A stretch of DNA of 22,119 nt from a bacterium. Its GTDB lineage: Bacteria > Hydrogenedentota > Hydrogenedentia > Hydrogenedentiales > SLHB01. This document shows, one piece after another, positions 5,279-22,119 of this stretch. Under the pieces are notes generated by a model that was not told where the DNA came from, ran no database searches, and saw only the letters and a list, made by a program, of their open reading frames with translations. A program made the position numbers and the translations under genes. Location of the stretch: assembly GCA_024231375.1 (NCBI GenBank), contig JAAEQP010001347.1, positions 1 through 22,119 of the forward strand. Direction: 5' to 3'. Every line of letters begins with the position of its first letter. The stretch's first letter is position 1.

Positions 5279-5397
5279 GCGCGCGTCTCCGTTGTTCGTC
5301 CCGTGTCCATTCTACACAACGGGCGGTGTGCAAGGAACAGGAGCGAAGCCTGCGCTATCACGAATGTGTCACCCAGACCGAAACCCACCCAAACAAT

Positions 5398-5437
5398 TCT
5401 TACCCTCGCCCAACGGGAGAGGGCAGGGTGAGGGGTC
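5398..5437 (-). repeat. CCCTCACCC...GGGAGAGGG palindromic repeat
   Basis: This is one of five copies in the window of an element built around CCCTCTCCC-GT-GGGAGAGGG (here with one arm mismatch), flanked by CCCCTCACCCTG on one side and TAAGA on the other. The orientation is minus relative to the copy at 11938. Confidence 0.8.
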
Positions 5438-5462
5438 TGCAGCCTTGTCCGGGTTCCCTGAG

Positions 5463-5524
5463 CCCAGCGACTTCCCATGCGCCCGAAGACACCCACAAAC
5501 GAGTTTGTGGGTGGCACATCAGCC
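5463..5524 (+). repeat. 62-bp repeat type A, copy 1
   Basis: This copy appears identical to 5597-5658. Its centre is a perfect 10-bp hairpin, CACCCACAAA-CGAG-TTTGTGGGTG, followed by GCACA. The outer parts are the reverse complement of the type B repeats, so A and B are opposite orientations of one element family with different centres. Confidence 0.85.
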
Positions 5525-5544
5525 GGGCGAGTTGCCTCCCCGCT

Positions 5545-5590
5545 CTCAAGTGTGCCACCTTCAAGCGCCAGCTCGTGGGTGCCCGGATTG
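5545..5590 (+). repeat. 46-bp repeat type B, copy 1
   Basis: It has the form TGTGCCACC, a short CAAGC/GCTTG-like stem (here GCTCG), then TGGGTG and CCGGATT. Near-identical copies lie at 5681-5726 and 5744-5788. Confidence 0.8.
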
Positions 5591-5596
5591 CCCAAC

Positions 5597-5658
5597 CCCA
5601 GCGACTTCCCATGCGCCCGAAGACACCCACAAACGAGTTTGTGGGTGGCACATCAGCC
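5597..5658 (+). repeat. 62-bp repeat type A, copy 2
   Basis: This is the second copy of the 5463-5524 unit. An A-B pair (5463-5590) is followed by A-B-B (5597-5788), which looks like tandem duplication of a composite unit. Confidence 0.85.
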
Positions 5659-5680
5659 CAGGCGAGGTACCTCCCCCATC

Positions 5681-5726
5681 CTCAAGTGTGCCACCTTCAA
5701 GCGCCAGCTTGTGGGTGTCCGGATTG
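5681..5726 (+). repeat. 46-bp repeat type B, copy 2
   Basis: It carries TGTGCCACC, then the CAAGC-GCCA-GCTTG stem-loop, then TGGGTGTCCGGATT. It differs from copy 1 at two positions, one of which completes the stem. Confidence 0.8.
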
Positions 5727-5743
5727 CAAGTTGCCTCCCCACT

Positions 5744-5788
5744 CTCAAGTGTGCCACCTTCAAGCGCCAGCTTGTGGGTGTCCGGATT
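5744..5788 (+). repeat. 46-bp repeat type B, copy 3
   Basis: It is the same as copy 2 over the shared length. The TTGCCTCCCC run before it also precedes copy 1, which supports a local duplication. Confidence 0.8.
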
Positions 5789-5813
5789 CCCCACGGGGAT
5801 CTCAACAGAAGGC

Positions 5814-5857
5814 ACAAAAAAACGCCGGGGAACCCGCGTCATGCAGATTCCCCGGCG
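5814..5857 (-). terminator. Rho-independent terminator of leuCD
   Basis: On the minus strand a 9-bp perfect GC-rich stem (CGCCGGGGA with TCCCCGGCG, loop 17 nt) is followed at once by a run of seven T. It starts about 10 nt after the leuD stop codon. Confidence 0.88.
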
Positions 5858-5866
5858 TCAACGTGA

Positions 5867-10240: not shown

Positions 10241-10292
10241 CCTGTCAAGGACAGGTCTCTCTTGACACACTGTGCCCGGAATTGGATATAGT
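10241..10292 (+). promoter_or_regulatory. Hairpin and putative sigma-70 promoter for selC-selA
   Basis: A small inverted repeat CCTGTC-AAG-GACAGG (10241-10255) is followed by TTGACA (10262-10267). GATATAGT follows at 10285-10292, giving a -10 hexamer at 17 nt (GATATA) or 19 nt (TATAGT) spacing. Transcription would start about 40 nt before tRNA-Sec. The hairpin plus the pyrimidine-rich TCTCTCTT after it might also end the upstream transcript. Confidence 0.5.
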
Positions 10293-10342
10293 GGCGTGTC
10301 TGGGCGTCTGGCGTATTCCGCGGTCGCCCTCGGGCGAGTTGG

Positions 10343-10437
10343 GGAGGTGACAGGGGCCCGGTGGCTCCCGCGGTCTTCAAAACCGTTTGCGCCGCTTAAC
10401 GGCGGCGGGTGGGTTCGACTCCCATTCACCTCCGCCA
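10343..10437 (+). tRNA. selC: tRNA-Sec (UCA anticodon)
   Basis: The 95-nt sequence folds as bacterial tRNA-Sec. The 8-bp acceptor stem is GGAGGTGA with TCACCTCC, with discriminator G and an encoded CCA. The T arm is GTGGG-TTCGACT-CCCAT. The D stem is an extended 6 bp (GGGGCC/GGCTCC) with a minimal CGGT loop. The anticodon arm GCGGT-CTTCAAA-ACCGT carries TCA at 10377-10379, and there is a long GC-rich variable arm. The 8+5 layout with a UCA anticodon is diagnostic of the tRNA that inserts selenocysteine at UGA. It ends 35 nt before the selA ATG. Confidence 0.96.
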
Positions 10438-10472
10438 CTTTTTCCCCTGTTCCCCGGGAAGGGAGAGGATCC

Positions 10473-11906
10473 ATGGCCCAACGAAGGCGCAAGAACGCGG
10501 CCCAATCCGCCGACCCACGGCAACACCTCGCCTCGGTTTCCGCTGTGCTGGAACACGATGCGATTCGGCTGCAGGTAGAGCAACGATCCCACGACGTGGT
10601 GGTCGATGCCATTCAGCAGGTGCTGGACGCGTACCGGGCACAATTGACGCCCGAATCCCAGGCACCGGACCTGGACACTCTCGCGGCCGAGGTCGTTGGC
10701 GCGTTGGACGAATCCGAACTGGACGCCATTCGCCCCGTCGTCAACGCCACGGGCATCATTCTGCACACCGGTCTTGGTCGTGCCGTGCTGCCCCAAGACG
10801 CAGTCGACGCGCTGGCGGGCGTGAACCGGTGCTGCAATCTTCAGATCGATCTCGAAACCGGACTGCGCGGTAAACGCAACCACGTGACCGAACAGTTGCT
10901 GTGTCGATTGACGGGCGCCGAAGCCGCCTTAGTCGTCAACAACAATGCCGGTGCCACGCTGCTGCTCCTGTCCGCTCTGTGCAGCGGGAAAGAGGTAGTG
11001 GTGTCGCGCGGACAACTCATCGAAATCGGCGGCTCCTACCGGTTGCCGGACTGCATCCATGCCAGCGGCGCGCAGCTTGTCGAGGTGGGCACGACCAACA
11101 AGACGCATCTCCGGGATTACCGTGCGGCGGCTACACCCGAAACCGGCGCCCTCATGCGTGTGAATCCGAGCAACTACCGCATCGTTGGATTCAGCCAGGA
11201 TGTGCCGACCCGCGACCTCGTGACGTTGAAGCAAGAACTGACCGAAGATCCCGAACACGCAGACCTGATCGTCATCGACGACCTGGGATGCGGTGCCTTG
11301 GTCAATCTGGAGGAGTACGGACTGCCTCACGAGCCAACCGTGCCCGACAGCGTAGCCGCGGGCGCGGACCTGGTCTGTTTCAGCGGCGACAAGCTCATCG
11401 GCGGTCCCCAGGCGGGCATCATCGTAGGACGCAAGGACTTGGTGGATCGCGTCCGCAAGCATCCCCTGACGCGGATGCTTCGCGTGGGCAAACTGACCGA
11501 CATGGTGTTGGAGCACACATTGCGGCTCTTCCTGCATCCCGAACGCCTGCGCGAAGCCAATCCGACCATCCGCATGATCACGCTGCCGGTAGACGGTCTG
11601 AAGAAACGGGCGAACGCCTTGAAACGGAAGTTGGACCGGCTCGACGCACCGCTGACGGTCGGTATCGCGGAAGATGCTAGCGCCGTGGGCGGCGGTTCGC
11701 TACCGGGCACACCGATACCCACGTTCGTGGTGAGCGTGCGCGCGGACGGCATGACGGCGGACGAGCTGAGCGCCGCCCTCCGCCGCCACGAACCGCCCGT
11801 AATTGCACGCATCAAGGATGACGACGTGCTGCTCGACATGCGCACGCTTATGGACGGCGACGACCAGGCGGTGGTGGCTGCGTTTGAGTGTTTGTCGGGT
11901 GAGTAA
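10473..11906 (+). CDS. selA: L-seryl-tRNA(Sec) selenium transferase
   Basis: This 477-residue PLP enzyme converts Ser-tRNA(Sec) to Sec-tRNA(Sec) using selenophosphate, in the cytoplasm. Visible family features are RPVVNATGIILHTGLGRAVL (87-106), the VVNNNAGATLLLL segment, GGSYRLPDC and VGTTNKTHLRDY. The PLP-binding lysine Lys307 lies in FSGDKLIGGPQAG. The open frame extends upstream through the tRNA-Sec gene to 10272, but those codons are tRNA sequence. The ATG at 10473 has GGGAGAGG just upstream and gives the normal SelA length. The gene sits between selC and selD and completes the enzyme set for making Sec-tRNA. Confidence 0.97.
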   Translation: MAQRRRKNAAQSADPRQHLASVSAVLEHDAIRLQVEQRSHDVVVDAIQQVLDAYRAQLTPESQAPDLDTLAAEVVGALDESELDAIRPVVNATGIILHTGLGRAVLPQDAVDALAGVNRCCNLQIDLETGLRGKRNHVTEQLLCRLTGAEAALVVNNNAGATLLLLSALCSGKEVVVSRGQLIEIGGSYRLPDCIHASGAQLVEVGTTNKTHLRDYRAAATPETGALMRVNPSNYRIVGFSQDVPTRDLVTLKQELTEDPEHADLIVIDDLGCGALVNLEEYGLPHEPTVPDSVAAGADLVCFSGDKLIGGPQAGIIVGRKDLVDRVRKHPLTRMLRVGKLTDMVLEHTLRLFLHPERLREANPTIRMITLPVDGLKKRANALKRKLDRLDAPLTVGIAEDASAVGGGSLPGTPIPTFVVSVRADGMTADELSAALRRHEPPVIARIKDDDVLLDMRTLMDGDDQAVVAAFECLSGE

Positions 11907-11937
11907 GCGGGACTGAAGACCCGCCTGCGGCGGGCGA

Positions 11938-12067
11938 GCCCCTCACCCTGCCCTCTCCCGTTGGGAGAGGGTAAGAGAGACGCGCTGGCCGGGGCGGGTC
12001 TGGAGACGTTCGGTCAGTAGAGTGGCTCGGTCAGAGCGCGGCCAAGAGACCGCGACCGGCCACAACG
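11938..12067 (+). repeat. Composite palindromic repeat between selA and selD, copy 1
   Basis: The unit has a CCCTCACCCTG-CCCTCTCCCG/GGGAGAGGGTAAGAG palindromic head (11940-11976). A tail follows with GGAGACGTTCGGTC, GTGGCTCGGTCAGAG and CGACCGGCCACAACGG. Head and tail recur together after selD. It fills nearly the whole selA-selD gap. Confidence 0.8.
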
Positions 12068-12093
12068 GAGTAGTCTGCGAGTGAGGAGGACGG

Positions 12094-13749
12094 ATGACGA
12101 TTGACATGTCGCGGCGGCGTGCCGTGATGGACCGATCCCAGAAGTTGGGGCACTGCATCTGCAACCCGAAACACCCGTGCCCGTGTCCGCCGCTCATCGA
12201 ACAGAACGTGTGCCCGTGCGCGGGCGAACGGTTGCCGGTGAAGCAAGGCCAGGTAGCCCTGACCCGCCACGTGCGCAAAGCCGGGTGCGCCTCGAAAATC
12301 GGACAGGCCGATCTGCTCAGCATCCTGAGCGGCCTGCCTTCGGTCACCGATCCCAATGTGCTCGTTGGCACATCGGCGGGCGACGACGCAGGGGTGTACA
12401 AGCTCGACGACCGCAATGCGTTGGTCCAGACCGTGGACGTGTTCACGCCCTGCGTGGACGACCCGTATCTGTTCGGCCAGATCGCCGCGGCCAACTCGGT
12501 CAGCGATGTGTACGCCATGGGCGGGCGGCCCATTTCGGCCTTGTCCATCATCGGATTCCCCATTGACGAATTGGACGGCAGCATCATGCAGCAACTGCTG
12601 CGGGGCGGCATCGACAAACTGGCCGAAGCCGACTGTTCCGTGATTGGCGGCCACAGCATCAACGACGAAGAGATCAAATGCGGGTTCGCGGTGACGGGTC
12701 TCATCGATCCGTCGAAGCCCGTTCAGCGCGACACGGCGCGTCCTGGTGATGTCCTCGTGCTTACCAAACCGCTGGGCACCGGCATGGTGTCGTTCGCGGC
12801 GCAACTCGGGTTGGTCAGCGACGACGTCCTCGCCGAAGTGGGCGGATGGATGGCGGCCCTGAACCGGGACGCCGCGGAACTCATGCTCACGCACGATGCC
12901 CATGCCTGCACGGACGTGACCGGGTTCGGCTTGGCCGGACACCTGGTCTCCATGGTCCGCGGTAGCGGCGTGACGGCCGAGATCGATTTGTCAGCGGTGC
13001 CCGTGTTCGGCATGGTGCCCGAATGCATCCAGCACGAAGTATTCGGCGGCGCGGTAGACCGCAACCAGGCCTACGCCATGGGCTGGGTCTCCGCGCCGGA
13101 GGCCGACGGAACCGGCCTGCCGGTGCTGTACGACCCCCAGACCTCGGGCGGCCTGCTCGTGGCCCTGCCGGAAGAACGGGCGCGGGCCTTCGTGGACGAC
13201 ATGCAGCAACGCGGACACGACGCCGTGGCCGTCATCGGCCGCATTGCGGAAAACGAGCCGGGGCGTGACGGGCTGGTGCGTGTGGTGAACGCGGAACTGG
13301 GTCGGTTCGTAGGACTCCGGGAACCCATGGACCTGTCGAAGAAACGCGACATACCCGCGGACGAACCGGCCGCGGTTGAATACGAAGACGTGCCGTGTTG
13401 TGAAGACCCGCCCGACCTTGGCCCAACACCGGTGGCGCACACAGCGACTCCCGAAACCATCACCCAAACGGAGACCTCGCAGATGGACGATCCATTGGGA
13501 ACCTTCAAACAGTTCATGGCCGAGGCCAACAAGCCCGGCCGCATCGATGCGCGGGCCAAGAAGCTCATGGCCATCGTGCTCGCCATCGCCCACCATTGCG
13601 ATCCGTGCCTGAAGATCCATCTGCAGGGCGCGGTGAAAATGGGGATTCCAAAGGAAGAGATCGACGAAGCCGTGGCGCTCGCGGTCGAGTTCGGCGGATG
13701 CACGTCCATGATGTTCTATCGCGATGCCTGTCAGGAGCTCGGGTTGTGA
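12094..13749 (+). CDS. selD: Selenide, water dikinase fused to Cys-rich N-terminus and AhpD-like C-terminus
   Basis: This 551-residue protein makes selenophosphate from selenide and ATP. Residues about 55-400 are SelD: TRHVRKAGCASKIGQADLL with catalytic Cys65 (matching E. coli Cys17), GDDAGVYKLDDRNALVQTVD, AANSVSDVYAMGG and GGHSINDEEIK. The second SelD cysteine of the E. coli GCGCK motif is Ser67 here. Residues 18-46 are a Cys-rich segment (GHCICNPKHPCPCPP...NVCPCAGE) with six cysteines, possibly a metal or selenium site. After a linker with VPCCEDP, residues 464-551 form an AhpD/carboxymuconolactone-decarboxylase-like domain with CDPCLKIH (Cys502, Cys505, His509), a peroxidatic-type CxxC. 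The frame is uninterrupted, but an internal ATG at 13483 with GGAG upstream could also yield the AhpD part alone. GAGGAGGA precedes the main ATG. Confidence 0.93.
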   Translation: MTIDMSRRRAVMDRSQKLGHCICNPKHPCPCPPLIEQNVCPCAGERLPVKQGQVALTRHVRKAGCASKIGQADLLSILSGLPSVTDPNVLVGTSAGDDAGVYKLDDRNALVQTVDVFTPCVDDPYLFGQIAAANSVSDVYAMGGRPISALSIIGFPIDELDGSIMQQLLRGGIDKLAEADCSVIGGHSINDEEIKCGFAVTGLIDPSKPVQRDTARPGDVLVLTKPLGTGMVSFAAQLGLVSDDVLAEVGGWMAALNRDAAELMLTHDAHACTDVTGFGLAGHLVSMVRGSGVTAEIDLSAVPVFGMVPECIQHEVFGGAVDRNQAYAMGWVSAPEADGTGLPVLYDPQTSGGLLVALPEERARAFVDDMQQRGHDAVAVIGRIAENEPGRDGLVRVVNAELGRFVGLREPMDLSKKRDIPADEPAAVEYEDVPCCEDPPDLGPTPVAHTATPETITQTETSQMDDPLGTFKQFMAEANKPGRIDARAKKLMAIVLAIAHHCDPCLKIHLQGAVKMGIPKEEIDEAVALAVEFGGCTSMMFYRDACQELGL

Positions 13750-13787
13750 GGAGACGTCTTCCTGCAGATGGGTCTCTGTGGAAGCAA

Positions 13788-13946
13788 GACCCCTCACCCT
13801 GCCCTCTCCCGTGGGGAGAGGGTAAGAGCCCCCCTCGACCCCGCCATTTCAAGGATACGCCGACCGGGGTGGGGATTGAGACCTTCGGTCGTGGCGTGAC
13901 CTCGCGGTCACGTCGGTGGCTCGGTCAGAGACCAGCCACAACGGCA
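13788..13946 (+). repeat. Composite palindromic repeat, copy 2
   Basis: It has the same head as at 11938 (perfect CCCTCTCCC/GGGGAGAGGG centre). The tail has GAGACCTTCGGTC, GTGGCTCGGTCAGAG and CCAGCCACAACGG, with an insertion of unrelated sequence between head and tail compared with copy 1. Confidence 0.75.
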
Positions 13947-13972
13947 ATGATGTTGCTCTTTGACGACTCTTC

Positions 13973-14012
13973 ACCCCCTCTCCCCACGGGAGAGGGTTGG
14001 GGTGAGGGGTCT
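13973..14012 (-). repeat. CCCTCACCC palindromic head, minus orientation
   Basis: This is a head-only copy. On the minus strand it reads GACCCCTCACCCCAACCC, then the palindromic CTCTCCC core. It differs from the other copies at the CCAA position. Confidence 0.75.
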
Positions 14013-14033
14013 TCCTCCGTCTTGACCTGTCTC

Positions 14034-14126
14034 CGGCCGAGCCACATTCGACGGTCCAAGGTCTCCGGACCTGCCGTAGCCACAATCTTACCCTCTCCCC
14101 ACGGGAGAGGGCAGGGTGAGGGGTCC
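14034..14126 (-). repeat. Composite palindromic repeat, inverted copy 3
   Basis: The head at 14086-14126 is the exact reverse complement of the head at 13788-13827. The tail at 14034-14073 matches GGAGACCTTGG...GTGGCTCGG in reverse. Copies 2 and 3 could therefore form a large hairpin or recombine to invert the DNA between them. Confidence 0.75.
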
Positions 14127-14239
14127 TTTCGCAGCCAAGCCGCGGTGACTCGCTCAACCGCTCGATCGCCGAGGAGTACCCTCAGGTGAGCCGGGCGCAT
14201 CCAGGCCTGCTCCGGCCCAGTCAGAATCCCGAGGTGCTG

Positions 14240-16174
14240 ATGATGATCTGCACCGCGGGGCACGTGGACCATGGCAAGACACGTCTCGTGAAGCTGTTGA
14301 CCGGCTGCGAAACCGACCGCTTGAAGGTCGAGCAGGAACGCGGACTCACCATCGAACTGGGATTCGCGCCGTGTACTCTCGGCGGCGACTTGTGCGTCGG
14401 TATCGTCGACGTGCCCGGCCACGAGAAGTTCGTGAAGAACATGGTGGCCGGTGTGTCGGGCATCGACATGGCCGTGCTGGTCATTGCGGCCGACGACGGC
14501 ATCATGCCCCAGACCCTCGAGCACATGCAGATTATGCAGTTGCTCGGCGTGCGCCACGGTATCGTGGCATTGACCAAGACGGACTTGGTCGACGAGGCCC
14601 GCGTGGAAGAGAACGTGACCGCCATCGGCGGATTCCTCAAGGGCACGTTCATGGAAGGCGCGCCGATTTGCCCGGTTTCTTCGGAGACCGGCGACGGATT
14701 CTTCGATTTCTACGAGGTTCTCGTGCGCGAGATCAAGAGCCTCGCCCGCCGCGAGCGGCACGGCGTGTTTCGCATGCCCATCGAACGCGTGTTTGTGAAG
14801 AAGGGGTTCGGCACGGTGGCGACGGGTATCCCGGTGGACGGCCTGGTTCGCGTGGGCGACCAGGTCGAACTGGTGCCCGGCGGCCAAACCAGCCGAATAC
14901 GCGGCCTCCAACGCTTTCTGCGCGATGCCGACGAAGGCGGCTACGGCCAGTGTCTTGCGCTGAACATGACGGATTTCGCAAAGGCACCACCCGAACGGGG
15001 TCAGGTGCTGATCCATGCGGGATATTTGTCCCCGTCCACGATCTTCCATGTGCAACTGCGACCGGTGCCGGGTCTCGAACACCCGCTGCAGAACGCGGAG
15101 TCGGTGAAACTCCACGCGGGGACCAGCGAGACCCCGGCCAAGGTATACCTGTGCGGCGACAAGACCCTTTCGAACCACAGCACCGGTTTCGCGACCCTTG
15201 TGACATCCGATCCCGTGGCGGCCGCGGTTCACGACCGGTTCATCATCCGCCGGGCCTCGCCCGCGACGACGGTGGCGGGCGGCGAGATCCTGGCTGTGAC
15301 CCACGGCAAGAACCGCCCACGTCAGAAACAGGTGGAGGCGTTGCTGGAAGGATACCGCGCGCATCTGGGCGATGCGGACCCGGCGTCGCTTGAAGGAATC
15401 GCGCGACGGGTGACTTGGACCCTACTTCACGACCATCCGCTGGGCGCGACTGCGGAGCAGATCGCCCAGACCATCCAGATCGATCTGGACACGGTGATGC
15501 GCCAGGTTGCGGCGTTGGCCGCGGACGGCGCCGTGATGGCCGTGCAACCCGACTACTTCATGCACGGCGACAGCTACGCGGAGTGCCTGCATCGCGCCGA
15601 AGCCCGCGTGACCGAAGCGGCGGAACAGGATGACGCGCTCAGCCTGACCTTCGGCGATTTGCGCAAAGGCCTCGACTGGCCGGGGCCCGTGTGGGATCGC
15701 ATCCAGAAGGATCTCGAGGAGAAGCGCCTCTTCCGCGTGCGCGGCGGCAAACTGGTGTTGCGCGGAGCACCCGACCGGTTCACGGAATCGCAACGCGCGT
15801 TGATGAAACAGATCCTCGACCTCTACGAGCGCACGGAGTTTCAGTCGCCCCGGCCCGAGGAAGTCCCCGACGCGCTGGAGGCGCCGGCTGGCGACGTGGC
15901 CCGTTTGATGGAGCATCTTTATAACGAAGGCGACCTCGTACGTCTCGCGAAGAATGTAGTGCTCAGCTATAATGCGTTTCGGCGTGCTCAGGACATCGTG
16001 ATCCAACAGGTCCAGGAAAGGAACGTGGTCGACTCGGCGGACTTCAAGGTCGCCATCGGCTCGACACGCAAGTACGCCTTGGCGATTCTGGATTTCATGG
16101 ACGGAAAGCACATCACGGTCCGCACAGGCAATCTACGGCGGTTGGCGCCGCACTACGAGCGCAACCTGCTCTGA
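14240..16174 (+). CDS. selB: Selenocysteine-specific translation elongation factor
   Basis: This is a 644-residue GTPase that carries Sec-tRNA(Sec) to the ribosome and binds the SECIS hairpin next to the recoded UGA. The N-terminal EF-Tu-like part has TAGHVDHGKT (P-loop), ERGLTIELGFA, VDVPGHEKFVKNM and ALTKTDLVD. The C-terminal part is a series of winged-helix domains ending STRKYALAILDFMDGKHITVR, the SECIS-binding end. Family members begin M-I-x-x-TAGH, which favours ATG 14240 or 14243 (GAGGTG just upstream). A GTG at 14186, with GAGGAG before it, would add 18 residues. Probable selenoprotein genes start only 24 nt downstream, so factor and clients are likely on one transcript. Confidence 0.96.
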   Translation: MMICTAGHVDHGKTRLVKLLTGCETDRLKVEQERGLTIELGFAPCTLGGDLCVGIVDVPGHEKFVKNMVAGVSGIDMAVLVIAADDGIMPQTLEHMQIMQLLGVRHGIVALTKTDLVDEARVEENVTAIGGFLKGTFMEGAPICPVSSETGDGFFDFYEVLVREIKSLARRERHGVFRMPIERVFVKKGFGTVATGIPVDGLVRVGDQVELVPGGQTSRIRGLQRFLRDADEGGYGQCLALNMTDFAKAPPERGQVLIHAGYLSPSTIFHVQLRPVPGLEHPLQNAESVKLHAGTSETPAKVYLCGDKTLSNHSTGFATLVTSDPVAAAVHDRFIIRRASPATTVAGGEILAVTHGKNRPRQKQVEALLEGYRAHLGDADPASLEGIARRVTWTLLHDHPLGATAEQIAQTIQIDLDTVMRQVAALAADGAVMAVQPDYFMHGDSYAECLHRAEARVTEAAEQDDALSLTFGDLRKGLDWPGPVWDRIQKDLEEKRLFRVRGGKLVLRGAPDRFTESQRALMKQILDLYERTEFQSPRPEEVPDALEAPAGDVARLMEHLYNEGDLVRLAKNVVLSYNAFRRAQDIVIQQVQERNVVDSADFKVAIGSTRKYALAILDFMDGKHITVRTGNLRRLAPHYERNLL

Positions 16175-16197: not shown

Positions 16198-16482
16198 ATG
16201 GCGGTCTGGTCACAGACATCGAAGACGAGGCGCGCGGTAGGCGTACTCGCGCTACTTATCGCCATCGGTCTGATCGTTGGCGGGGCCAGGGTGTCATACG
16301 AGGTGCATGACGACGACGAGATGGCGGCCGCGTTTGGCTTGGACACCTACACCGAAGTGTCCGAACGCGAACTCGTGATCGATGCCACGTTCAGCGGTGT
16401 CACCCGTCGTGACGGCAAGCTGTATTCAACCTATGATCGGGCGCTGGGCGCGGTGAAACGCGCCTGCCCCACGTGAATTTAG
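16198..16482 (+). CDS. Probable small membrane-anchored selenoprotein with C-terminal CxxU
   Basis: Read to the UGA at 16474-16476 this is a 92-residue protein ending ...KRACPT. If that UGA is selenocysteine, it becomes 94 residues ending CPT-U-I before a TAG at 16480-16482. Basic residues (KTRR, 9-12) precede one hydrophobic helix (about 14-29), so the C-terminus should face outside the cytoplasm. Cys90-P-T-Sec93 would be a CxxU redox motif next to the C-terminus. The case for Sec is the hairpin after the UGA: it has the same position and loop as those in two downstream selenoprotein candidates. The gene follows selB by 23 nt; the ribosome site is weak (AAAAGGGA). I do not recognise the family. 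Confidence 0.7.
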
Positions 16483-16489
16483 CCCATAC

Positions 16490-16508
16490 GGCGGTCATGG
16501 CGGCCGCC
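16490..16508 (+). promoter_or_regulatory. Putative bacterial SECIS hairpin 1 (UGA at 16474)
   Basis: The stem GGCGGUC/GGCCGCC (7 bp, one U-G pair) closes the loop AUGGC at 16497-16501. The inner six pairs start 17 nt after the U of UGA. It lies beyond the TAG stop, which is acceptable for a Sec at the penultimate position. Confidence 0.75.
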
Positions 16509-16537
16509 TTCGCGACAGACTGAGGCGGGCGAGGCCA

Positions 16538-17383
16538 TTGAGAAGGCCAGCCCCAGGGAGAAATCCGTTCATCAAGCGTCGATTCGTTCAAGTAACCTCG
16601 CTGGTCTTGCTCCACAGTTCCTTTGCGCCGTGGGCGCAGGCCAAGTGGTTCTGCAATCCCGTGCTGAGCTGCCATTCGTGCGTGCTGGCGTGGTTCGCAT
16701 GCCCCGTCGGCGTGTTCGTCCACTACTCGGGCTACCACATGTTTCCCTTCGTGGCCGCGGGCACGGTACTGCTGCTGGGGGCGTTGTTCGGCAGGTTGCT
16801 CTGCGGCTGGGTGTGTCCCTTCGGGCTCATCATGGATTGGCTCTACAAGATCCCCTCACCCAAGTTCGCCATGCCCAACTGGACAGGCTACATCAAGTAC
16901 ATCGTGTTGATTGTGATGGTGTTCGCCCTCCCCTGGTTCCTGGGCGAACAGAGCCTGTACTCCTTCTGTCGGATCTGTCCGGCATCGGCGCTGCAAATGA
17001 CTGTCCCGAACCTCATCATGGGGAAGGTGACGACCGTCAGCGTGGCGCTCGTGGTGAAACTCGCCATTCTCGTGGCCGTGCTCGTGCTGGCCGTGTTCAG
17101 CAGCCGGTCCTTCTGCAAGGTGTTCTGCCCCATTGGCGCCATCCTTGCCCCGTTGAACCTCATCAGCTTCTGGGCGCTCAAACCGCCCGTCATGGCCTGC
17201 CGCGATTGCGGCCGATGCGACCGCGTATGCCCGGTTTCGGGGGTGCCATCCGAGCGCATCGCGAGCGGCATCCCGGCCAACCGCGCCATGGAATGCGTGG
17301 TCTGCCACGATTGCCAGGAAGCATGCCCCCACGGTGAATGTCCTTCGGGGAGCGACGAATCCGGTCCGTTTGCGGTAGAATAG
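16538..17383 (+). CDS. Membrane-bound 4Fe-4S electron-transfer protein, NapH-like
   Basis: This 281-residue protein has four or five membrane helices and two ferredoxin-type clusters. In order it shows a Cys-rich start (C39, C45, C48, C55), CGWVCPFG (C89, C93), CRICPA (C144, C147) and FCKVFCPIG (C193, C197). These are repeated CxxxCP/CxxCP signatures of the NapH/CcoG/RnfB-neighbour type. A dicluster ferredoxin tail follows (CRDCGRCDRVCP at 221-232 and CVVCHDCQEACP at 253-264). Such proteins pass electrons between the quinone pool and exported or periplasmic partners. The start is uncertain: TTG 16538 has GGCGAGG upstream, and no ATG or GTG is available in frame. It lies between two probable selenoprotein genes, which makes it their likely electron donor, by inference. 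Confidence 0.88.
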   Translation: MRRPAPGRNPFIKRRFVQVTSLVLLHSSFAPWAQAKWFCNPVLSCHSCVLAWFACPVGVFVHYSGYHMFPFVAAGTVLLLGALFGRLLCGWVCPFGLIMDWLYKIPSPKFAMPNWTGYIKYIVLIVMVFALPWFLGEQSLYSFCRICPASALQMTVPNLIMGKVTTVSVALVVKLAILVAVLVLAVFSSRSFCKVFCPIGAILAPLNLISFWALKPPVMACRDCGRCDRVCPVSGVPSERIASGIPANRAMECVVCHDCQEACPHGECPSGSDESGPFAVE

Positions 17384-17417
17384 CAGCGCTCGATACCGAA
17401 CGAGGGGAGTAGTATCG

Positions 17418-19478
17418 ATGAAGAGATTGCGTTTGCAGTCCCGGTGGTTGATGGTCGCGCTTGTGCTGCTGGCGGCTGGCGCGGTGCATGCCGAGCAGCA
17501 TGTGTTCCGGCTGGGGCACTTTGAACGGGGCTTCCAACTCACCCTCACTGAGAACGCCGAATTCCGGAAGGTGGCGTTCAGTGCCGAGCCAGAGTATGCG
17601 AACGTGGGTGTGCATCGCGGCACCATTCCCGTGGGACCCGAGAAGAAGGACCTTATCGGGTACGCCATTGACCCGGTGAAGAAGGTGGCGTATGTGGACC
17701 TCAACCGGAACCAGGACCTTACCGACGACGGGAAGGGGTTCCGCTCACCCGGCGATTCGTACCGCCAAACCTACGGCAGCATTCCCATTGCCATAACGGA
17801 TGGTCCGGTTGCCCGCGAGTACATGATCGAACTTTCCTGCTGGCCTTCCGGAACCATGACGACGGCAACCGTGCAGTCGGGCTGGTCCGCGAAAGTCGAA
17901 CTGGCGGAGGAGATGGTGCAGATCGGCGTGATCGACAATCTGGATGGCGTGATCGACCAAAACGACCGGCTCATCATTAGTCCTGTCAAACGGTGGCACC
18001 CGGCGCAGAACCATGAGAACGCGCGCTATCGATTCGGGGCCATGGAGCACGTCTGGTTCAACGGTCGCGCGTACGACGTGGCCTACGCGTTCGAGTCAAA
18101 CGGAGAGAAGCCCTCCGAGTTGGTCGTGACGCTGACGGACGTCGCGCCGCCAACCGCGCCACTCACTATTGCGGGTACTTCAATCGCTCAACTGGTCCTG
18201 CGTGGCCAATCCTGGGCCGTGGTGGCCGATTCGCCGGGCGAGACTCTCCAGGTTCCGGTCGACACCTATTCGTCACAGCGCATCCATACGGACGCGGACG
18301 AGGTCTACGGGGAGGCCCTTGCCGAAGTGAATCAGTCGCTGAACGTGGCGGCGGGTGCGCAGGTCACCCTCAACGCCGGTGGACCCATCGGGCCAAGCGT
18401 CACCGAGATGCGGTCTGGGAACACGTTGACGCTGACACCGATCGTCCGCGGCATTGGCGGGGAGGTCTACGCGTTTGCCGATGATTTCACGCCGCCCTTG
18501 CCTGCGTTCGGGGTCTATCGGGGTGACAAACAGATATTCGCTGGCAAGTTCGAGTATGGGTGAGGCGGCCCCTGCGCGTACTCATGGCGAGTACCTCTGA
18601 CGGCTTTCGGCGACCTCCGCATCGAAGCGTGGCAGAAGATGGGCACGACCGAACACCGTGGCCAGCCTATCACCGTATCCTGGCCCATCTACCGCAACCT
18701 GGCGCGGGTGTTGCCTTGGTTGCTGTTCTTTGCCCTATTCCTCTTGCCCGAAAACCGTACCCGCCGCGCGTGGGCGGTGTGGATTCCCATGTTGGTCATC
18801 GTGGGACCGGTCATCCTTCTCGATTTCGCGATTGCATCCTTTGACGGCTCGGGACTGGGCTCGCTAAGCGACGCAGCCCAAGCATTCGCCATCACGACAG
18901 GATCCCTCTGGCTGTTGGGCGACCGCATCGCCGGGTCCGGCGGGTGGACGACCCTCGGAAAGGCTCTGATCGCCGCCGTCGTCATCTGCTTGCTGACCCT
19001 GATCGGTTTCAGCACGCTGGATTTCGGTGAATGGTTCGCCATGCCTGGTGGACTGGCGGGGGTGACGGTAGGCTCGGTTGTCCTGGGCTTCCCGTTGGCG
19101 GCCCTGTTCTGCCGGAAACGGATTGCGCCGCCCTCGTTCACGGGCGGGCTATTCCTCGGGATTCTGGGCGCGTCCATCGTGATTCCGGGAGTGGTCCTAT
19201 GCGTGGTGGCGCTGTCTCAGATAGCCAACCCCGAGATACTCCTCCAGATGGCGTTTATGCTCGTTGCGGCCCTTGTCGGCGGCGGGTTCCTGGGCGCTGC
19301 GACCTGCGGCGCCATGCTGGGATTCGTCATGCTGGCGTTCACGAACGGGTTGTTCCTGGACCGGTTGTATCGGGTGTTGCGCAAGCCGTTGCCGGCAGAA
19401 ACAGTCGAGGAGCCGCCACAGAACACCGAGATTCCGGAGGAGGAGGTCGAGGAGCCGTGGCAAGAAGGCGCTTCATGA
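17418..19478 (+). CDS. Probable selenoprotein: secreted domain joined through in-frame UGA to a multi-spanning membrane domain
   Basis: Residues 1-25 are a signal peptide. Residues about 26-381 are a secreted domain with acidic loops (DLNRNQDLTDD at 94-104) like Ca2+-binding loops. The frame meets UGA at 18561 (codon 382) and then stays open in the same frame to 19478, giving 686 residues. Around the UGA it reads FEYG-U-GGPCAYSWRVP, matching FKYG-U-GATCAATWRGP in the next gene, and a SECIS-like hairpin follows. U382 and Cys386 would form a UxxxC pair. From about residue 430 there are seven or eight hydrophobic helices and then an acidic tail. A standard caller would split this into 17418-18563 and a membrane protein starting at ATG 18639, which has no good ribosome site. 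The ATG has GAGGGGAG about 8 nt upstream. Function unknown. Confidence 0.8.
18578..18594 (+). promoter_or_regulatory. Putative bacterial SECIS hairpin 2 (UGA at 18561)
   Basis: Perfect 6-bp stem GUACUC/GAGUAC with loop AUGGC (18584-18588). The stem starts 17 nt after the U of UGA, as in hairpins 1 and 3. Relative to hairpin 3, three of the six pairs are changed on both sides with pairing kept. Confidence 0.85.
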
Positions 19479-20905
19479 TACGAATCGGGGCGGCGGTTAC
19501 GCTGCTGGTTGGGTTCGCGGTGACCGCGTCGGCACTGGAGATCCCGCTCACTTATGAGAGGTATCCGCTTGCCAGCTCCGATTTCCAGCCCATGGGAGGG
19601 GCCACGCTCAAGTGCCGGGTGGGCACCCCACGGGGCAAGTGGAACCTGCCCGAACTGGTGAGTGAGAATCCGGTCTACATCGCTTACGAGTTGGCGGGGC
19701 AGCAGCATATGATGGTGCTGGACCGGCAGAGGAAGGGCGGTCCCTTCTACAATCGAATCTACTTCGATGCCAACGGAAACAGAGACCTGACCGACGACCC
19801 CGTGATAGACGGCACGGTCCACTCGCACGGGCCCGTTTCTTACAGGGCTCAGTTCGATCCGTGCGATGTGACCCTCAATGTGGGCTCGGATGCACTCCCT
19901 TTCAGCTTCGCCGTGGCCGCCAGATGCTTCGTACGCGATCCGAAGAGATCTACGCCCACGGCAGAGGAACTCGCAAAACACCTGCGCGTGGAAGTGACGA
20001 CCAACTGCAGGTACACGGGCACTCTTGACCTCGACGACAAGAGTCTCCAGATCGTGCTCAGCGACGGCAACGCGAACGGGACCTTCGATGACCTCGCGAC
20101 CCTTCCCAAAGTGGGGTGGAAGAACCTTGAGAGGCTCCTGGTGCCGTTCGGCGATCATCTGTACTTCAAGACGGCCGCGAAGATGAACATCTACCACTCC
20201 GTACCTCTCGGCCAGTATCTGTCGATTGGGGGCCGCTTGTTCGCCGCGAGTGTCGACATTCCCGGCGGGAAGATCGTCCTTTCGGAGCCGGAAGGTGCGC
20301 TTGTGTCCGTAGAACTCCCGATGGAGGTGGAGCACCTTGCCCTTCTCTCCGAGACATCGGGCACGTGTGTCATGCTGCGCAAACCGCCCAAGCAGGTCAC
20401 CATCCCCGCTGGCAGCTATATGCCCGTGAAGTACAGAGCCCTCCGTCGCGACGATCAGGGCGACCTGTGGGAGCTCTTGGCGCTCGCGGCGGGCAGAACA
20501 TCGACACTCGACCTCTCAACTGACGGCGCGACGGTCACCTTCGGTGAGCCGTACACGCCCACCGTCATCATCGAGCCGACGCAAGTCGATCAGTTGAAGG
20601 CGGGCCGGATTCACGACCTGCCCATGGTCTTCTGCGTTCGTGGCCAGGCGAATGAGCAGCTCCTTGAGGTCATGCGCATCGAGGGCCATCACCCCTTGGA
20701 CGGCGACCGGCCCAAGGAGGCGGAGTACAGGATTGTGGAGACAGACGGGAAGGCCGTCGCGCAAGGCGCCTTCAAGTACGGGTGAGGCGCCACGTGCGCG
20801 GCCACATGGCGTGGTCCGGAACTCAACACCGAATACTACATCCTGTGCAACTATCAGGTTGGCCCGTATGAAACGAAGCTTGAGAAGCAGTCCGTGAAGT
20901 TCTGA
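19475..20905 (+). CDS. Probable secreted selenoprotein, paralogue with C-terminal Sec-containing Ig-like end
   Basis: A signal peptide (residues 1-20, cleavage after ASA) leads into a secreted domain with two acidic metal-loop motifs, DANGNRDLTDD at 98-108 and DGNANGTFDD near residue 200. Read to the UGA at 20783 it has 436 residues ending AFKYG. With UGA as Sec437 the frame adds GATCAATWRGPEL...KLEKQSVKF before a second UGA at 20903, 476 residues in all. The extension aligns with the post-UGA part of the preceding gene, and a SECIS-like hairpin lies at the same offset. Sec437 and Cys441 form UxxxC. The ATG overlaps the previous stop (ATGA), so the genes are coupled. It is closely similar to the gene at 21097. 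Biochemical role unknown; a redox or metal-binding role is inference. Confidence 0.8.
20800..20816 (+). promoter_or_regulatory. Putative bacterial SECIS hairpin 3 (UGA at 20783)
   Basis: 6-bp stem GGCCAC/GUGGUC (one G-U pair) with loop AUGGC (20806-20810). It starts 17 nt after the U of UGA, the same as the other two. Confidence 0.85.
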
Positions 20906-21096: not shown

Positions 21097-22119
21097 ATGA
21101 GACGAATCAGTTTTGCCATAGCGATGTCCCTGGCACTCGCCATGGCTGCGTCCGCGCTGGATATCCCTCTGACGTACGAGAAGTACTCGGATAGCAGGCG
21201 CGACTTCCGGCCCATGGGCAGAGTCATGATTAAGTGCCAGGCGGGGGCACCACAGGGCGATTGGAAGCTCCCCGAACTGGTGAGCAAGCAACCGGTCTAC
21301 GGCACCTACGGGTTGGCCGGGCAGAAGCTGATGATGTTGCTGGACCAGCAGAAGGCCAGCGACCCCTTCTTCAACCGCATCTATTTCGACGCCAACAACA
21401 ATAGGGATCTCACCGACGACGCCGTCATCGACGGGACGGTGCAATCGCACGGCGGAAACTACTACTACAGCCAGTTCGGCGCGTGCGATGTGACCTTGAA
21501 GGTGGGCGACGCCGCACTCCCTTTCAGCTTCATGCCCGCGCTCAACTTCATGGTGCCCAATCCCCAGGGCGAGGCGATGAGCGCGGACAATCTGGCCAAG
21601 TACCTCACCGTGTACATCACGACGAACTGCATGTACACGGGCGTTGTGGACCTTGACGGACAGCATCTCCAACTCATGCTGGGCGACGCCAACGCGAACG
21701 GGGTCTTCGGTGACATTGCGGAACTCCCGGCTGTCAGCGCGCAACAACCGAACATGTATCGGGTCCCTTCTGGCGACCAGTTGTACATCAGCGCAACCAA
21801 GAAGCTGGAATACTACGACTTCCTGCCGCTCGGGCAGTATCTCTCTGTCGGCGGACGTCTGTACGCGGTGAGCGTTGACATCGCCGGCGGCAAAATGGTG
21901 CTCTCGGAACCCGAGGGCACGTTGGTGTCGGCGAAACTGTCGATGGAGGCGGACCACCTCGTCCTCTGTTCGGCCACGTCGGACACGTGCATCATGTTGT
22001 ACCAGCCCGGCACGCAGATTACGGTGCCGGCGGGCAGCTACATCCCGGCGAAGTATCGGGCGCTCCGCAACGACGAGCAAGGCGACCTCTGGGGGCTCGT
22101 GGCCTACGGAACGGGCAAC
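21097..22119 (+). CDS. Secreted paralogue of the 19475 selenoprotein, cut by window end
   Basis: The first 341 codons are present and the frame is open to the window end. A signal peptide (MRRISFAIAMSLALAMAASA) is followed by a domain closely like residues 20-350 of the preceding gene: LDIPLTYEKY, LPELVSKQPVY, FFNRIYFDANNNRDLTDDAVIDG, TTNCMYTGVVDLDG and GDANANGVFGD. Both acidic loop motifs and Cys47 are kept. By alignment, the YG-Sec-G-x-x-C region would fall roughly 95 codons past the last base here, so whether this copy has Sec or Cys cannot be seen. GGAGG lies 7 nt before the ATG. It is the third member of a tandem family in this operon. Function unknown. Confidence 0.85.
   Translation, partial: MRRISFAIAMSLALAMAASALDIPLTYEKYSDSRRDFRPMGRVMIKCQAGAPQGDWKLPELVSKQPVYGTYGLAGQKLMMLLDQQKASDPFFNRIYFDANNNRDLTDDAVIDGTVQSHGGNYYYSQFGACDVTLKVGDAALPFSFMPALNFMVPNPQGEAMSADNLAKYLTVYITTNCMYTGVVDLDGQHLQLMLGDANANGVFGDIAELPAVSAQQPNMYRVPSGDQLYISATKKLEYYDFLPLGQYLSVGGRLYAVSVDIAGGKMVLSEPEGTLVSAKLSMEADHLVLCSATSDTCIMLYQPGTQITVPAGSYIPAKYRALRNDEQGDLWGLVAYGTGN

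Follow-up and report, generated by a model that had tools for sequence, protein, structure and literature searches.

In this work we present an analysis of a 22,119-nucleotide stretch of DNA from a bacterium of the Hydrogenedentota (contig JAAEQP010001347.1 of assembly GCA_024231375.1, positions 1 to 22,119 of the forward strand; hereafter the window), in which three genes located downstream of a selC-selA-selD-selB set contain an in-frame UGA codon followed by a hairpin. Our results indicate that the three UGAs are very probably read as selenocysteine (Sec) by the SelB and tRNA-Sec encoded upstream, each with the help of a hairpin predicted to be of the selenocysteine insertion sequence (SECIS) type. 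We predict this from sequence comparison, as the UGA is kept at its place in relatives of several phyla, a conserved frame or stop lies behind it, the stems show compensatory changes and the genes are linked to selA. In bacterial Sec insertion SelB carrying Sec-tRNA binds a hairpin and decodes the UGA, and each of the three codons would be decoded in the same way. Three marks of a bacterial selenoprotein gene, namely a conserved in-frame UGA with a frame or stop behind it, a hairpin under selection and Sec machinery in the genome, were found here. Sec decoding had already been proposed in the original prediction, and it is now backed by 101 distinct TGA sites, the conserved frame, the kept stems, the untranslated hairpins of the small protein family and the selA linkage. 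The three genes and their elements, all on the plus strand, are as follows.

16198 to 16482, plus strand: small protein ending CPT-UGA-Ile-stop, predicted selenoprotein (CPTUx-stop family), with a hydrophobic N-terminal segment; TGA follows CPT in relatives
16474 to 16476, plus strand: UGA 1, predicted Sec codon (from the sequence and CPT-UGA in relatives)
16490 to 16508, plus strand: hairpin 1, 7 bp, loop AUGGC, in the 3' untranslated region (from sequence, relatives and covariation)
17418 to 19478, plus strand: predicted membrane selenoprotein (second protein), consisting of a beta-rich, exported part that includes the Sec domain and of helices behind it
18561 to 18563, plus strand: UGA 2, predicted Sec codon, FEYG-U-GGPC (from sequence comparison)
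18578 to 18594, plus strand: hairpin 2, 6 bp, loop AUGGC, within the coding frame (from sequence, covariation and shuffling)
19475 to 20905, plus strand: predicted exported selenoprotein (third protein), Sec in a C-terminal Ig/Fn3-like domain
20783 to 20785, plus strand: UGA 3, predicted Sec codon, FKYG-U-GATC (from sequence comparison)
20800 to 20816, plus strand: hairpin 3, 6 bp, loop AUGGC, within the coding frame (from sequence, covariation and shuffling)

Behind all three TGAs the stem starts at +17 and the ATGGC loop at +23, counted from the U. The paired segments are GCGGTC (16491-16496) with GGCCGC (16502-16507), GTACTC (18578-18583) with GAGTAC (18589-18594) and GGCCAC (20800-20805) with GTGGTC (20811-20816). 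These positions, stems and loops are exactly those described in the original prediction, and the three two-sided pair changes it had noticed between the stems of hairpins 2 and 3 were likewise recovered. A six-pair stem at +17 follows 4 of the 287 plus-strand and 1 of the 297 minus-strand TGAs of the window, and ATGGC at +23 is found after 4 and 2 of them, respectively. Both features together occur at exactly 16474, 18561 and 20783 (3/287) and at none of the minus-strand TGAs (0/297); a first-order Markov simulation of the plus strand, run 200 times, never yielded the combination. Hairpins 2 and 3 are not mutually independent, because their genes share a homologous domain, and the gene of hairpin 1 is unrelated to these genes in sequence. 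A covariance model for which 39 hairpins were taken from other genomes, without the rows of the window, ranked the three hairpins 1, 2 and 4 in the window when both strands were scored; it is not fully independent of the window, since a 17-nt hairpin identical to 18578-18594 is present at 18 other sites. Rank 3 was taken by positions 1628-1648 of the minus strand, antisense to an AraC-like gene; this hairpin, which scores much as the three do (20.4 and 20.1 bits) and follows a TGA at a distance of about 20 nt, is probably due to chance.

The conservation of the UGA was followed in the Ig/Fn3-like Sec domain. A database search with the third protein, in which 7997 candidates were scored, listed 53 matches, 2 of them from the window itself; among the matches listed, 50 of 51 homologues end at the residue before the UGA and one is cut earlier. 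No Cys-bearing homologue running through the site was present among the 52 matches listed in the profile search, and it added two further proteins, a shorter fragment and one that stops at the site. From genome contigs 47 loci were obtained, 30 of which, together with the window, hold 46 motif sites with TGA at 46/46; the motif pattern left the middle codon free and its one non-stop match is unrelated. According to their labels these 30 loci belong to Aminicenantes, Sumerlaeota/BRC1, Hydrogenedentota, Verrucomicrobia and Opitutia, Limisphaerales, Planctomycetota and Omnitrophota, with one labelled Nealsonbacteria. Profile matches over all loci gave 104 TGA, 1 TGT, 1 TGC and 1 TAT codon at the site, and 6 rows fell short of it; by their 65-nt core 101 of the 104 TGA sites are distinct and 3 repeat the core of another site. 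Homologues with Cys in place of Sec, to which the original prediction had looked for a check, seem hardly to exist, the TGT (L105) and the TGC (L100) both being found in divergent members. Of the 101 read-through frames 46 finish at TGA, 33 at TAG and 20 at TAA, the end of 2 not being reached, and as the same genes end in mixed stops, the constant TGA at the site does not reflect general stop usage.

The sequence behind the UGA behaves as a protein-coding one. Differences behind the hairpin amount to 0.297, 0.215 and 0.466 at codon positions 1, 2 and 3 (110 overlapping pairs picked at no less than 50% protein identity), and the first Cys after Sec stands at +4 in 86/101 sites. In the third protein, which continues for 39 residues behind its UGA, three strands of the last domain lie in this part (predicted local distance difference test values of 92-97 in the model), so the frame is predicted to complete an Ig/Fn3-like domain, modelled with confidence. 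The second protein has six helices of at least 20 residues behind the UGA, and six or so membrane helices in this region are conserved in relatives. Loci L043 and L045 hold homologues with neither Sec nor Cys at the site, which have apparently lost the pair, and at L096:1476 two consecutive UGAs stand at the matching column.

According to the profile search the domain is present in 23 of the 25 genomes reached through the loci. It was further found in at least 37 of 392 genomes in the phylum of a Pirellulales genome; for the phyla of a Hydrogenedentota, a Verrucomicrobia and an Aminicenantes genome the counts were 13/68, at least 5/240 and at least 1/199, respectively. The Pirellulales, Verrucomicrobia and Aminicenantes counts are lower bounds, as part of the candidates of each genome were scored, and some weak matches lack the Sec region. 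Genomes G020, G017 and G117 gave 9, 7 and 7 domain matches and could possibly be selenoprotein-rich.

At the 100 coding sites analysed all six pairs are formed at the fixed place in 72, compared with a mean of 2.9% and a maximum of 8% in 500 synonymous shuffles, and a nearby stem of at least six pairs is present in 93 (29% under synonymous shuffling); the values hardly differed when repeated sites were still included. Among 42 hairpins two-sided changes were observed in all 7 pairs, with a covariation of 0.870 vs 0.217 after shuffling, and the covariation is abolished when the pairing partner is slid. Fifteen untranslated hairpins show two-sided changes in 5 of 7 pairs (0.418 vs 0.236 shuffled). 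Selection on RNA structure, as originally proposed from the window's three stems, is thus strongly supported by the sequence comparison, the stems being kept to a degree that the protein does not require.

The small protein provides evidence of another kind. TGA follows CPT in 6/6 of the first relatives and then in 19/19 distinct ones (window included), and behind it there is one codon and a stop in 18/19 and two codons in 1/19; a match to the small protein was found in 18 of the 47 genomes searched. At 16474 the predicted Sec is the penultimate residue, with UAG two codons on, so that hairpin 1 lies outside the coding region and cannot be fixed by protein sequence. The untranslated hairpins have AUGGC, AGGGC and ACGGC loops and variants of these, and their mean best stem is 6.7 pairs, compared with 4.6 in shuffled sequences.

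The original prediction had also raised the possibility of a lineage-specific SECIS form, which is corrected here, as the hairpin form spans several phyla. AUGGC alternates with GUGGC, AGGGC and ACGGC, and GGU loops appear in distant members. The rules for bacterial SECIS elements given in PMC13188914 are a loop of 3-9 nt, a spacing of 16-37 nt, an energy of no more than -7.5 kcal/mol and a G in the first two positions of the loop. Loop size, spacing and energy agree jointly with these rules at 90/102 coding and 17/19 untranslated sites and in all three hairpins of the window, and the early G required of the loop stands at only 55/102 coding and 5/19 untranslated sites. As in known bacterial SECIS elements, a short stem-loop follows just behind the UGA; the differences are that the hairpin of the CPTU family stands behind the stop codon and that the AUGGC loops of the window have no early G. 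The SECIS form is a variant and not a new principle. At L092:1741, L097:1149 (minus) and L104:1738 (minus) there are distant small members in which the UGA stands in YG-U-GGGGWAS and the hairpin, of 8 bp, has the loop GGU, nearer to the E. coli form. At L095:1744 and L101:1750 (minus) a UGA stands at the matching column with only 3-pair stems nearby; either these members have no SECIS of this kind or the match is wrong.

The link to the Sec machinery starts in the window itself, where all four genes of the selC-selA-selD-selB set reported earlier upstream of the UGAs were identified with ARAGORN, Rfam, Pfam and NCBIfam. These and the two other genes concerned are listed below.

10343 to 10437, plus strand: selC (tRNA-Sec), by ARAGORN and Rfam RF01852 (75.2 bits)
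10272 to 11906, plus strand: open frame of selA (TIGR00474, 533 bits), with its true start behind the tRNA gene
12094 to 13749, plus strand: selD with a C-terminal CMD/AhpD-like fusion (TIGR00476, 352 bits; PF02627)
14186 to 16174, plus strand: selB (TIGR00475, 298 bits; SelB winged helix PF09107)
16538 to 17383, plus strand: NapH-like membrane ferredoxin (Fer4_5 over the cut-off, TIGR02163 under its cut-off)
21097 to 22119, plus strand: paralogue of the third protein (P0009, 57% identity), ending at the window edge before the likely Sec site

For the comparison across genomes 43 with a TGA-bearing domain were tested (22 derived from loci, 17 of the Pirellulales phylum, being those with E < 1e-10 among 37, and 11 of 13 of the Hydrogenedentota phylum, overlaps counted once), and 37 of 55 Hydrogenedentota genomes without a domain match served as the comparison set. 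SelA scored over the cut-off in 36/43 genomes with the domain vs 5/37 without it; when only Hydrogenedentota are considered, the values are 9/11 vs 5/37 (Fisher p 5e-5). For 15 of these 36 genomes the distance between selA and a domain gene is no more than 7.5 kb. The gene order of sel genes, CPTU, ferredoxin, membrane protein and third protein is found, whole or partial, in L001, L008, L009, L010 and L011. Homologues that end at the same position in genomes devoid of sel genes had been named in advance as evidence that would count against Sec decoding. The seven genomes without a SelA match include two in which tRNA-Sec is clear (77.2 and 66.6 bits). Three more of the seven are narrowly over the 47-bit tRNA-Sec cut-off, in one case at the end of a contig with two domain genes, and the rest gave no tRNA-Sec match above it.

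The SelD of the window (12094-13749) has a Cys-rich N-terminal extension and a CxxC pair in its C-terminal CMD/AhpD-like domain; long relatives with both extra ends are encoded in L001, L022 and L028. G+C-rich repeats resembling each other (similar translated strings, both strands) are located in the intergenic regions at about 5280-5860, 11907-12090 and 13750-14130.

Several observations weigh against Sec decoding. The 47-nt folding energies at the three sites of the window are unremarkable (z of -0.44, 0.69 and -0.20), so that shared place and loop stand out there, and not stability. Seven of the 100 coding sites have no nearby stem of six or more pairs, single untranslated hairpins are mostly within the shuffled range (P from 0.007 to 0.52), and 2 of the 19 have only five pairs. 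The rows used for covariation (26 distinct coding stems, the second one of the window and 15 of the 19 untranslated) were picked for having a stem, and for this reason only the pair changes count as evidence, not the pairing rate. To the same side belong the single TGT, TGC and TAT codons at the site and the absence of a SelA match in 7/43 genomes with the domain. Finally, none of the three AUGGC loops of the window has a G in its first two positions, by which the rule published in PMC13188914 is broken.

If the UGAs were ordinary stops, the hairpins 3' elements (for example terminators, or structures that confer stability) and the downstream frames separate or decayed genes, it would be understandable that gene callers end the database homologues at the UGA and that folding energies in the window are ordinary. 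This explanation is, however, very improbable, as TGA is constant at a site in genes which themselves use all three stops, the substitutions behind it are codon-like, the strands encoded there complete a domain, about six conserved membrane helices follow in the second gene and the domain is associated with SelA. Open frames continuing through the UGA would also be expected if these organisms read UGA generally as sense, be it as Gly, Trp or another residue; with 46 of the 101 read-through frames ending in UGA themselves and a selC-selA-selD-selB set in the window, we regard this as next to impossible. Insertion of Sec through SECIS-type hairpins is the reading that we consider very probable.

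As to the function of the Sec residues, we tentatively suggest, with somewhat less than even confidence, that the products form an exported redox relay. The suggestion is based on the Sec-Cys spacing, the recurrent ferredoxin, the signal-like N-terminal segments, recognised by eye, and thioredoxin-like fusions. A relative of the ferredoxin is present in 13/47 loci, and in 8 loci (L029, L033, L034, L037, L038, L041, L044 and L047) the place of the Sec domain behind relatives of the N-terminal domain is taken by a thioredoxin-like one (WCGPC-type motif, by eye). Electrons from the quinone pool or the cytoplasm would enter the NapH-like ferredoxin, pass to the CPT-Sec-x arm at the C-terminus of the small membrane protein and from there reach the Sec-x-x-x-Cys pair in the Ig/Fn3-like proteins; one of these proteins is equipped with a membrane part of its own. 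There is a nearly even chance that Sec is inserted for a role other than the relay, such as metal or selenium binding, surface peroxide removal or ferredoxin-free thiol chemistry. Up to 9 domain matches per genome would fit binding or scavenging, and the DxNxNRDLTDD motif of the N-terminal domain, which we take to resemble a calcium loop, was counted on this side as well; against it speak the recurrence of the ferredoxin as a neighbour and the thioredoxin-like domains carried by relatives of the N-terminal domain. These proteins might constitute an undescribed selenium-dependent extracytoplasmic redox system, a proposal that we hold as possible and still short of probable, composed of Sec-x-x-x-Cys proteins of Ig/Fn3 fold, a membrane CPT-Sec-x arm, a NapH-like ferredoxin and a SECIS class with RNGGC-type loops. 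Its members almost never have Cys, and they often stand beside sel genes in Hydrogenedentota, Planctomycetota, Verrucomicrobia, Aminicenantes and Sumerlaeota/BRC1; if real, the system may account more than anything else for the retention of the Sec machinery in some of these lineages.

Among known proteins, those with a penultimate or C-terminal Sec, such as mammalian thioredoxin reductase (GCUG) and the bacterial UXX-star and KCU-star families, are similar to the small protein in that Sec is paired with Cys close to the C-terminus and a stop soon follows. They differ from it in that here the CPT-Sec-x end is placed on a small protein with one hydrophobic segment, to which NCBIfam gave no match. 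DsbD combines an Ig-fold redox domain, a membrane domain and a thioredoxin domain. The second protein can be likened to it in its way of working only, as it would fuse an Ig/Fn3-type domain bearing a redox-type pair to a membrane domain, with Sec-x-x-x-Cys here instead of two Cys; Pfam and NCBIfam gave no DsbD match, and DsbD was not among the fold matches listed, which excludes nothing.

The three UGA proteins of the window have no match over the cut-off in Pfam and NCBIfam. With NCBIfam 20.0 no match was obtained for 6 CPTU members or 10 membrane-form members, the 55 members of the third-protein alignment gave one stray match to an unrelated model, and a Pfam scan of family members returned only isolated matches (MG2 and GEVED) in single members. 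Table 1 of PMC13188914 covers 119 prokaryotic selenoprotein families, including those of Haft and Tolstoy 2025, some of which were matched by NCBIfam for other proteins. An Ig/Fn3-like Sec domain is mentioned in no entry of this table, nor is a CPTUx-stop protein; some entries give no motif, so that a distant relative could be hidden among them. As far as Pfam, NCBIfam, this table and literature searches go, the families, which occur in uncultured bacteria of several phyla, are new.

With the known families, as described in PMC13188914, the present ones share an in-frame UGA, a SECIS-like hairpin, Sec near Cys and genes near sel genes or near each other, and they differ in that Cys forms are almost absent here. 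According to the same text the usual finding of bacterial selenoproteins relies on Cys homologues or on the SECIS loop rule. With Cys homologues almost absent and about half of the hairpins breaking the loop rule, this may explain why the proteins are entered in databases as hypothetical and end at the UGA. The authors of deep-Sep state in PMC12013277 that a Cys homologue now seems to exist for every known selenoprotein and that filtering may remove candidates for which there is none; the Sec-domain superfamily comes close to being a counter-example. With selC, selA, selD, selB and three predicted Sec genes on 22 kb, the stretch is a compact test bed for hairpin recognition by SelB of another lineage.

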